Assembly (NCBI GenBank): GCA_022826965.1
Contig: JAJDTU010000005.1
Span: 558,001 to 622,000 of the forward strand
Length of the DNA: 64,000 bases
Direction: 5' to 3'
Source: Dehalococcoidia bacterium
GTDB taxonomy: Bacteria > Chloroflexota > Dehalococcoidia > Bin125
Shown here in pieces: positions 15,661 through 38,790 of the stretch (the stretch's first letter is position 1; every line of letters starts with the position of its first letter). The notes under the pieces are model-generated. The model saw nothing but the letters and a program-made list of their open reading frames with translations. It did not search any database and was not told the origin of the DNA. A program made the position numbers and the translations under genes.

Positions 15661-15779
15661 AGCTGGCAATGGCCTATTTTCCGCAAGGGGTTGCCCCCCC
15701 AGTATCGTCGGCGCTGCGGCGTTTCACTTCCGTGTTCGGGATGGGAACGGGTGGTCCCACCGCGCTCCAATCACCAGCT
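15661..15779 (-). rRNA. rrf: 5S ribosomal RNA
   Basis: About 119 nt. Helix I is formed by the ends agctgg and ccagct. The strongly conserved 5S core cccatcccgaacacggaag is present in the minus-strand reading, followed by cgatactgggggggcaaccc near the 3' half. A terminator follows immediately. No 23S 3' end precedes it: the upstream sequence holds protein-coding genes, so this 5S copy is separate from a 23S gene at least within this window. Confidence 0.93.
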
Positions 15780-31695: not shown

Positions 31696-31744
31696 GTCGA
31701 GCCCCCGCTGAAGGGCGATCGGTTGTCGTTCGGGCGGGCCTGAA

Positions 31745-31850
31745 AGCTGCTGCGCTCCCTGCGCCGGCATTACCCGGATCAGGTTCGGCGGGTGTGTTCT
31801 CAGGCCCAGACCCCGTCACTCGACGGTCGGACCACCCCGGCTTTGTTGAG
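31745..31850 (-). promoter_or_regulatory. TPP riboswitch (THI element)
   Basis: Read on the minus strand: ccggggtggtcc (31840-31829), a variable P3 arm, the invariant ctgaga (31803-31798), then gaacctgatccgggtaat and gccggcgcaggga ending at 31756. These are the TPP-binding cores of the family in correct order. It lies about 50 nt before thiD and should switch the whole operon off when thiamine pyrophosphate is plentiful. The exact P1 ends are uncertain. Confidence 0.95.
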
Positions 31851-34809: not shown

Positions 34810-35037
34810 CTCGTCACACTCCATGGTGCGGGGGCGGTTGAGCAGCGTCACGGCGACGCGATTCTTCGCCTCCAATTCCGACGCTATGTCGAATAGACCG
34901 ACCCGGCGTGAGCGATTTGTCACCGCACGATTAACCGCTCACGGCGAACACTTCGCTTGACAAGCAGGCGTCAGACTGGCGATACCCTGCCACACAGTCC
35001 AACCAACCCAACCAACGAAGCCGCCCAGGAGCTCGCC

Positions 35038-36123
35038 ATGCTGAAGCAGTTTGCCGTCCCCGAAGAGATCGCCGTCCGTATCCCCGGCGACGCCATGCGC
35101 GGCGCCGTCCACGAGATCTTCACCGCCTGCGGCATGCCCGATGACGACGCCACCCGCAGCACCGACACGCTGCTCTACGCCGACCTGCGCGGCATCGACT
35201 CGCACGGCGTCTCCAACATGCTGCGCTTCTACGTCGCCGGCTTCCAGTCCGGCGACATCAACCCCACGCCCAACTGGACGATCGAGCGAGATGCGCCGGC
35301 CGCCGCCACGATCGACTGCGACCGCGGTCTCGGTCTCACCGTCGGGCCGCAGGCGATGGAACTGGCGATCGAGAAAGCTCGCAACCAGGGTGTCGCCACC
35401 GTCGTCTGCAACAACGGCCGACACTTCGGCGCCGCCGCCTATCACGCGGCGATGGCGATCGAGCACGACATGATCGGCCTCTCCATGACGGTCGGTGGCC
35501 TGCTCGTCGCGCCGACCCACGGCGCACAGGCGATGGTCGGCCTTAACCCGATGAGCATCGCCGCCCCGGCCAACGAGGAAGCGCCGTTCATCTTCGACGC
35601 CTCAATGTCATCCGTCGCCGGCAACAAGATCCGCCTCGCGCAGCGTCTCGGCGAGGACCTGCTGCCCGGCTGGGTCGCCACCGCCGACGGCACCCCGATG
35701 ATGGAGGCAGGCCAGACACCGGACGAGTTCCTCATGCTGCCGCTCGGCGGCACCCGCGAGATCGGCTCGCACAAGGGCTATTCGCTGGCCGTGATGATCG
35801 ACATCCTCAGCGGGATCATGGCCAACGCCGGCTCGGCCCTCTTCCGCTTCAACGGCGTCGGACACCACTTCACCGTCTTCAACATCGCCTCGTTCACCGA
35901 CGTCGACGAGTTCAAGGGCCACATGGACGAATACCTCCAGGCCCTGCGCGAGACGCCGACCGCTCCGGGAGAAGAGCGCGTCATCTATGCGGGACTCGAG
36001 GAGCACGAAGCGGAGATAGACCGCTCCGAACGCGGCATCCCCTATCACCCCGAGGTGATCGAGTGGTTCCGCTCAGCGTTCGGCGACCTCGGAATCCGCG
36101 ACCACTTCGCCGGCATCGCCTGA
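35038..36123 (+). CDS. Ldh2/MDH2-family NAD(P)-dependent dehydrogenase
   Basis: 361 residues from ATG 35038, which has a caggag Shine-Dalgarno. The family (malate, L-sulfolactate, ureidoglycolate, 2,3-diketogulonate dehydrogenases) has a non-Rossmann fold. Visible signatures: LLYADLRGIDSHGVSNML, NNGRHFGAAAYHA with the conserved His, and PLGGTREIGSHKGYSLA. Substrate cannot be chosen from sequence. Its 3' end overlaps the convergent membrane-protein gene by 51 nt. Confidence 0.88.
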   Translation: MLKQFAVPEEIAVRIPGDAMRGAVHEIFTACGMPDDDATRSTDTLLYADLRGIDSHGVSNMLRFYVAGFQSGDINPTPNWTIERDAPAAATIDCDRGLGLTVGPQAMELAIEKARNQGVATVVCNNGRHFGAAAYHAAMAIEHDMIGLSMTVGGLLVAPTHGAQAMVGLNPMSIAAPANEEAPFIFDASMSSVAGNKIRLAQRLGEDLLPGWVATADGTPMMEAGQTPDEFLMLPLGGTREIGSHKGYSLAVMIDILSGIMANAGSALFRFNGVGHHFTVFNIASFTDVDEFKGHMDEYLQALRETPTAPGEERVIYAGLEEHEAEIDRSERGIPYHPEVIEWFRSAFGDLGIRDHFAGIA

Positions 36124-37455: not shown

Positions 37456-37542
37456 GACCACGAGCCGACAAAGACGAGCCCCAACAGCGCCGCATCCGAT
37501 ATCGTTCGAGATGCCAGACCCTCAACTCACCGGAGTCCTCCA

Positions 37543-38790
37543 ATGGTCCGCATGGACGACCTGCACCCCGATATGGCCAACAACCTGCTCAACCTCCCCC
37601 TGCCGGAGATCGAGCCGCAACCCTGGATCACGCCCAGGCCACTCGCCGACTCGACCGTGGCGATCGTCACCACCGCCGGCCTGCACCCCGCTGGCGACCG
37701 ACCCTTCAACCCGGGCTCCAACGAGTACCGCCTCATCCCCGGCGACATCGACTACGCCGACCTGCGCATGTCCCATCTCTCCGTCAACTTCGACCGCTCC
37801 GGCTTCCAGCAGGACATCAACACCGTCTTCCCGCTCGAACGACTGCGCGAGCTCGAGGCCGACGGCGTCGTGGGCGGCATTAGCCGCTACCACTACTCGT
37901 TCATGGGCGCCCAGGCCGACCCGACCAATCTCGAGTCGACCGGCGAGGACATCGGACGTCTGCTCGCCGAAGACGGCGTCGACGCCGCCTTCCTCACACC
38001 CGTTTGACCGTTCTGCACGCGCTCCGTGTGTGCGCTCAGCCACTACATCGAACGCGGCAGCAACGGCCGCGTCGCCACAACCGGCATCTCGTTAATCCGC
38101 CGGCATCCCGAGGGCATGAAGCCGCCGCGTTCGCTCTGGGTCCCGTTCCCCCTCGGTCGCCCGCTCGGCTCGCCCGACCATCCCGACTTCCAGCGCGACG
38201 TCCTGCGCTCGGCGCTCCAACTGTTGGAGTCCGCCACAGAGCCCACGATCGCCGACTACCCGCACGACGCGCCCATCACCGGCGACGACCCGTGGGCCTG
38301 CGCGATCATGGTCACACCGCCCGAGCCGGCCGACGAAACCGAAGCGCTGCGTGACCAGCTCATCGAAGAGATCCGCCAGCTCGCGCCCTGGCATGGCGAG
38401 TCGATCAAGCGCCGCGGCCGTACCACCGTCGGGATCAGCGGCGCGACCGTCGAGCAGATGGAGCAGCTCGCGACGCTGCTGGCAGACTTCGCCACCGGCG
38501 CCGAACCCTCCGACACCGCGCAAGGTGATGAAGTCGACTGGAATCACCCCATGCCGGTCCGGCTCAAGTTCGCCTCCGACGACCTCCGAGCCTTCTACCA
38601 CGAATCCGCCACGGCCCAGCCCGGCGCCCCGTACCCCACCGACGCCGACCTCAACGATTGGCTCTTCAACCAGACCCTCCTCGGCACGGTCCTCCGCCAG
38701 ATCGTTGGTCGAATGCGCCAGAGCGAAGACCGCCGCGTAGCCGGCCTCGTCATCGGAATGATCCCCGCCGGCTTCGCCCGCGCCCGCTAG
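37543..38790 (+). CDS. Candidate selenoprotein: glycine/sarcosine/betaine/proline reductase selenoprotein B-like protein, in-frame TGA = Sec155
   Basis: ATG 37543 (ggag 7 nt upstream) opens a frame that meets TGA at 38005-38007 and continues without another stop to 38790, 415 residues if TGA is read as selenocysteine. Both halves belong to one family. The N-terminal half has AIVTTAGLHPAGDRPF and RMSHLSVNFDRSGF; the junction reads TPV-U-PFC; downstream come CALSHYIERGS and PRSLWVPFPLGRPLGSP. These match the family segment that in cysteine homologs reads PVCPxC, followed by an xxRHLEx helix and FxDFPLGNPxG. So U155-P-F-C158 would be the redox UxxC pair. Members reduce C-N bonds or act as uncharacterised redox proteins. 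No other Grd/Prd subunit or sel gene is in the window. Confidence 0.82.
38015..38033 (+). promoter_or_regulatory. Candidate bacterial SECIS stem-loop
   Basis: Seven nt after TGA 38005-38007: 6-bp stem gcacgc / gtgtgc (one G-U pair, extendable by one U-G pair) and a 7-nt loop gctccgt. The first loop base is G, and the loop begins 16 nt from the U of UGA. This agrees with the general bacterial SECIS description (short stem right after UGA, small loop with G in the first two positions). The structure was folded by eye. Confidence 0.6.

Follow-up and report, generated by a model that had tools for sequence, protein, structure and literature searches.

The 64-kb window analyzed here (the whole stretch from 558001 to 622000 on contig C4 of G000, a draft genome of 3.0 Mb and 97% completeness) contains a reading frame interrupted by an in-frame TGA, which raises the question of whether this codon is decoded as selenocysteine and, if so, what kind of chemistry the resulting protein would perform. 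An initial annotation of the same DNA had described two same-frame halves split only by this codon and had read them as a single, uncharacterised selenoprotein whose GrdB/PrdB-like domain carries a UxxC motif. The features concerned are the following:

37543..38790, plus strand: probable selenoprotein gene of 415 residues including Sec155 (open frame; 15 orthologs built alike)
37532..37535, plus strand: Shine-Dalgarno sequence GGAG, 7 nt 5' of the ATG (sequence letters)
38005..38007, plus strand: TGA, read as selenocysteine 155 (TGA also in orthologs and own-genome paralogs; 8 Chloroflexota homologs have Cys at this column)
38005..38016, plus strand: putative redox motif U-P-F-C (Sec155, Cys158)

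The frame starting at ATG 37543 is open to TAG 38788-38790 with TGA 38005-38007 as its sole internal stop, as the initial annotation had stated, and the motif around residue 155 reads PV-U-PFC. The proper start claimed for the upstream half was likewise borne out by GGAG at 37532-37535 and by the N-terminal Met-Val-Arg common to the orthologs and the full-length paralogs B and C, although the frame stays open 5' of the ATG too. Among the in-frame TGAs of the 64 kb, in a ranking limited to those with at least 40 open codons on each side, TGA 38005-38007 took the top rank for the coding-type GC bias of its two flanks. The length of the open frame is weak evidence alone (the chance of a 260-codon open stretch is about 0.003 at the base composition of the window), so the case for a gene rests on conservation, which is decisive.

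A search with the window protein returned three further copies in G000, each with one TGA: paralogs B and C in tandem on contig C2 (49% and 47% identity, respectively) and paralog D on contig C14 (37%), and the idea of a "lone" selenoprotein has to be given up. The TGA occupies the same codon (P-V-U-P-x-C) in 15/15 orthologs, window included, as well as in all three own-genome paralogs. The orthologs are 82–93% identical and the close ones sit in Chloroflexota MAGs, several of them titled Dehalococcoidia, with one (L027) coming from bin125 of the Aplysina aerophoba study (PMC5649159); synteny is conserved at the ortholog loci and looks vertical within the genus. The family was found in 33 of 61 related genomes, with exactly one TGA in nearly every match, and 71 of 301 Chloroflexota genomes gave a sub-cut-off match to the PrdB model, most of them again with one TGA. 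Cysteine replaces selenocysteine in the eight Chloroflexota homologs (TAG-C-PLC vs. TAG-U-PLC in close relatives) and in two alphaproteobacterial ones, and the diverse alignment (A3) shows U/C155, P156, and C158 without exception. The expectation that column 155 would hold Cys or Sec was thus correct, but the PV-C-PxC predicted for the Cys homologs was not, as TAG-C-PLC or VPN-C-P[VI]C was found instead. In the tree, the long forms make up a single clade, all Sec (support 100/91), and at least four Sec/Cys changes are needed in the family, all outside this clade. Purifying selection is similar on both halves of the gene (median Ka/Ks 0.09 upstream and 0.11 downstream of the TGA).

Some peculiarities were seen along the way. 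Every long form listed (35 of 48 counted sequences) has GTT rather than GTC or GTG as the codon preceding the TGA (38002-38004 in the window; L022-L082), in genomes that are rich in GC; this may reflect a readthrough context effect. In another genome (G008; L080, from 9002 on), at least two copies follow each other head to tail in a single reading frame, the sole interruptions between them being read-through TGAs. A further locus (L085, G037:C11) holds two tandem GrdB-like genes with U-GTGTRCG that group with Acetoanaerobium GrdB.

The initial annotation had suggested searching for the selenocysteine machinery, whose complete absence would have refuted its reading, and all four components are encoded in G000: a tRNA-Sec with anticodon TCA (UCA; 70 bits), SelA (523 bits), SelB (347.5 bits), and SelD (352 bits). 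The SelD gene (L019, G000:C12:264989-265930) has an in-frame TGA of its own within CGG-U-GSK, so the selenophosphate synthetase of this genome is a selenoprotein too. A sequencing error (TGC, TGT, or TGG in reality), a nonsense mutation, or a pseudogene would look identical if this in-frame TGA had been seen once in one draft assembly, yet the recurrence of the TGA in independent MAGs of the 15 orthologs, in the three paralogs, and across the phylum, together with the constraint on both halves and the complete Sec machinery, makes this explanation exceedingly improbable.

A candidate insertion element lies shortly downstream of the TGA:

38020..38034, plus strand: putative SECIS hairpin of bacterial type (stem of 38020-38024 and 38030-38034 around the apical loop C-G-U-G-U at 38025-38029)

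Counting the U of UGA as 1, its pairs are 16-30, 17-29, 18-28, 19-27, and 20-26. In 35 Sec sequences, 89% of the cells are paired and covariation reaches 0.637 (vs. 0.205 ± 0.032 in shuffled alignments), while the same stem slid along the alignment gives at most 0.105; for the long family alone, a six-pair stem yields 0.329 vs. 0.187 ± 0.025. The window sequence itself forms four of the five pairs, 38023/38031 being U-U. The eight Cys homologs pair in 52%, no better than shuffled. RNAalifold found no significant consensus structure in the UGA-proximal region (z about -0.1 to -0.5); the hairpin emerged only by explicit pair counting and its stem was picked after the sequences had been inspected, so the Cys-homolog control weighs more than the shuffles. 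Codons 156–175 are in the lowest 2% of windows for synonymous divergence. As described for bacterial SECIS elements in a marine survey (PMC1088965), where the hairpin closely follows the UGA and has a G in its apical loop, the loop here carries a G. Its covariation among Sec members and its loss in the Cys homologs indicate a Sec-only element.

The hairpin also bears on the start codons. No other stop or start had been reported between the two halves, which holds for stops only: an in-frame GTG lies at 38026, 18 bases 3' of the TGA, and could in principle open a second protein after a first one that ends at TGA 38005. No Shine-Dalgarno sequence was visible 5' of this GTG, the conserved PFCTRS sits upstream of it with P-x-C, the most conserved residues, falling between TGA and GTG, the Cys homologs are each one continuous protein, and the UGA-proximal hairpin is retained in TGA members only; the odds of two separate proteins are accordingly negligible. 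Judged by these comparisons of sequences, 37543-38790 is best described as one gene in which UGA is decoded as selenocysteine, i.e., a true selenoprotein, as initially annotated. In the proposed mechanism, SelB and tRNA-Sec would insert selenocysteine at UGA 38005-38007, guided by the hairpin at 38020-38034, and this decoding appears strongly supported, to the point of near certainty.

What the protein does is a harder question, for which two regions have to be considered:

37609..38238, plus strand: GrdB/PrdB-like domain, residues 23–232 (Pfam GRDB 2.7e-11; TIGR04483 PrdB 4e-31, below cut-off)
38239..38787, plus strand: C-terminal extension, residues 233–415, predicted helical (no convincing family match; conserved in orthologs; low-confidence model)

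The Pfam match (PF07355 GRDB, residues 23–152) scores 43.8 bits against a gathering cut-off of 22, and the PrdB match spans residues 23–232; both agree with the domain originally assigned. For the extension, a Pfam search with residues 256–415 gave no match, and a TetR_C_13 match in one family member (E 0.0097) was judged to be due to chance. A profile search of PDB sequences had a best E of 0.079, which is not meaningful. AlphaFold2, run with 16 mostly close sequences, modeled the whole protein with a mean pLDDT of 63 (below 50 in the C-terminal part, and 46 when this part was modeled alone), and Foldseek with this weak model retrieved nothing with E < 0.001. Microcystinase C was considered as a fold relative and rejected (best VIA-align Z 8.5, inside the usual background). 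The extension is predicted to be helical on the basis of this modeling.

Homology to PrdB, GrdF, GrdH, and GrdB could mean an ordinary D-proline, glycine, or betaine reductase subunit with its partner encoded elsewhere. The scores are far below the cut-offs of these equivalog models, however: 108.3 vs. 300 bits for PrdB (TIGR04483), 64 vs. 800 for GrdF, 52 vs. 775 for GrdH, and 49.7 vs. 602.2 for GrdB (TIGR01917), the PrdB and GrdB values being curated cut-offs. The pyruvoyl subunit (PF09338, GrdE/PrdA) had no match in G000, a 97%-complete draft in which a very divergent partner could escape, and none in 11 relatives except for a sub-threshold one of 20.8 bits in G014, while the Acetoanaerobium control gave five matches, including one of 84 bits near prdB. 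GrdA (PF04723) was unmatched in G000 and equally so in the control genomes. The motif is UPxC here vs. UGTC in clostridial PrdB (L122/L123). Such a subunit is therefore very unlikely, and the earlier statement, which set the protein apart from the classical glycine and proline reductases of clostridia, stands. Since a haem-copper oxidase subunit (COX1) is encoded in G000 and GrdE/PrdA is not found in this nearly complete genome, a clostridial Stickland enzyme is not what we are dealing with; COX1 is also in line with the aerobically equipped, marine-type host that had been assumed.

The surroundings offered no reductase partner among the neighbors of the window gene or of paralogs B–D. The window gene has no companion on its strand; its neighbors are two alpha/beta hydrolases, sucCD, and an Ldh_2 dehydrogenase, and a comparison of the orthologous loci revealed no conserved operon partner for it. 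Paralogs B and C adjoin a RecQ-like helicase, and paralog D is accompanied by acyl-CoA-dehydrogenase-like, glyoxalase, enoyl-CoA hydratase, SnoaL, and luciferase-like monooxygenase genes. The Ldh-family dehydrogenase (window 34957-36123) is conserved near the gene in nine orthologous loci and a clostridial prdB locus (L122, 8292-9392) has one nearby as well, possibly by coincidence. Elsewhere in the window, a TPP riboswitch (31739-31849, minus strand) is located just 5' of minus-strand ORFs resembling thiamine biosynthesis genes, and a 5S rRNA gene is present at 15661-15778 (minus strand).

As a pyruvoyl subunit is not detectable in the genome, cleavage of an amino acid's C-N bond via a pyruvoyl Schiff base is improbable for the window protein. 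In the mechanism that we propose instead, the Sec155-x-x-Cys158 pair would form the active site, with Sec155 as nucleophile or reductant and Cys158 resolving it as a selenenyl sulphide; a cellular dithiol, e.g., thioredoxin, would reset the pair, the protein would reduce or cleave a different polarised bond of some organic compound, and the four paralogs (A–D) would cover different substrates. For Synergistota, it has been proposed that a GrdB-like protein uses its Sec for nucleophilic attack on a C-F bond (PMC10838667), so such bond-attacking chemistry has already been considered for this family. The most likely role, in our view, is that Sec reduces an organic substrate without a partner subunit and is recycled by thiols, although this catalytic part, with its active site, dithiol reset, and non-pyruvoyl organic substrate, is tentative, its chances falling somewhat short of even.

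The main competitor is a protein for thiol-disulphide exchange in general or for peroxide defence, in which UxxC would serve as a thioredoxin-like redox center and which would have no organic substrate of its own. Many thiol oxidoreductases have a motif similar to UxxC and the setting is aerobic (COX1), but the homology is to the substrate-reducing GrdB/PrdB proteins rather than to thioredoxin-fold ones, the motif has different surroundings in each of the four paralogs, which suggests that they are specialised for substrates, and paralog D adjoins a degradative-type gene set; we consider this alternative less likely than not. The explanation as a whole, namely a 415-residue selenoprotein that is a long, partner-free GrdB/PrdB relative with Sec155/Cys158 reductive chemistry, is in our opinion probable. 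It would be a long shot to see in the all-Sec long clade of sponge-associated Chloroflexota, with a C-terminal helical domain of its own, a new class of pyruvoyl-free selenoenzymes that reductively cleave host or seawater organics (e.g., halogenated ones).

Why this matters is best seen from the symbiont side. SelA and SelB were reported to be enriched in sponge symbiont bins of Aplysina aerophoba as compared with relatives (PMC5649159), and a single family with four conserved Sec genes in each genome is a concrete candidate for the use of this machinery; the new enzyme class, if real, would help account for the enrichment. Automatic annotation probably often splits such genes or labels them as pseudogenes, so an entire paralog family can go unnoticed. 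A biochemical question is raised, too, by GrdB/PrdB domains that lack a pyruvoyl partner, namely that of the target of the Sec attack.

Several known systems can be set beside the window protein. Clostridial D-proline reductase PrdB is homologous over residues 23–232 and has Sec at the equivalent position, but it has about 240 residues and works with PrdA, whereas the window protein has about 415 and no PrdA was found in its genome. GrdB, GrdF, and GrdH share their Sec-bearing C-terminal half with it and differ by an N-terminal part of about 200 residues and a GrdE-type subunit, both of which it lacks. The plasmid proteins of Roseomonas and Haematobacter named "Glycine/sarcosine/betaine reductase selenoprotein B family protein" are stand-alone, with no adjoining reductase subunits and aerobic hosts, like the window gene; they are shorter, and Cys (VPNCP[VI]C) takes the place of Sec. 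The Roseomonas plasmid version (L120) adjoins selO. Our literature searches retrieved nothing on SAR202 and selenoproteins and no paper with the phrase "betaine reductase selenoprotein B".

Further counterparts are the PrdB-type UxxC proteins of Zhang and Gladyshev, reported since 2005 to belong to the most abundant selenoprotein families of marine bacteria (PMC1088965, PMC2398784): PrdB ranked third in abundance among the known families of the Sargasso set of 2005 (42 genes; PMC1088965), and the GOS set of 2008 contained 235 Sec and 110 Cys members (pfam07355, UxxC; PMC2398784). The window protein, with its pfam07355 domain and UxxC, has in common with them the Pfam family, the Sec-first motif, the occurrence in marine bacteria, and the existence of Sec and Cys versions. 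The kind of protein is therefore already known, and the view that the family is new or unusual in such organisms cannot be maintained; "uncharacterised" is fair as to function. Those papers count the family under the name PrdB, and their family descriptions, on which this comparison is based, do not mention a C-terminal extension of about 180 residues or multiple copies per genome. What looks new, judging from the sequences, is a long, all-Sec clade in sponge-associated Chloroflexota with several copies per genome.
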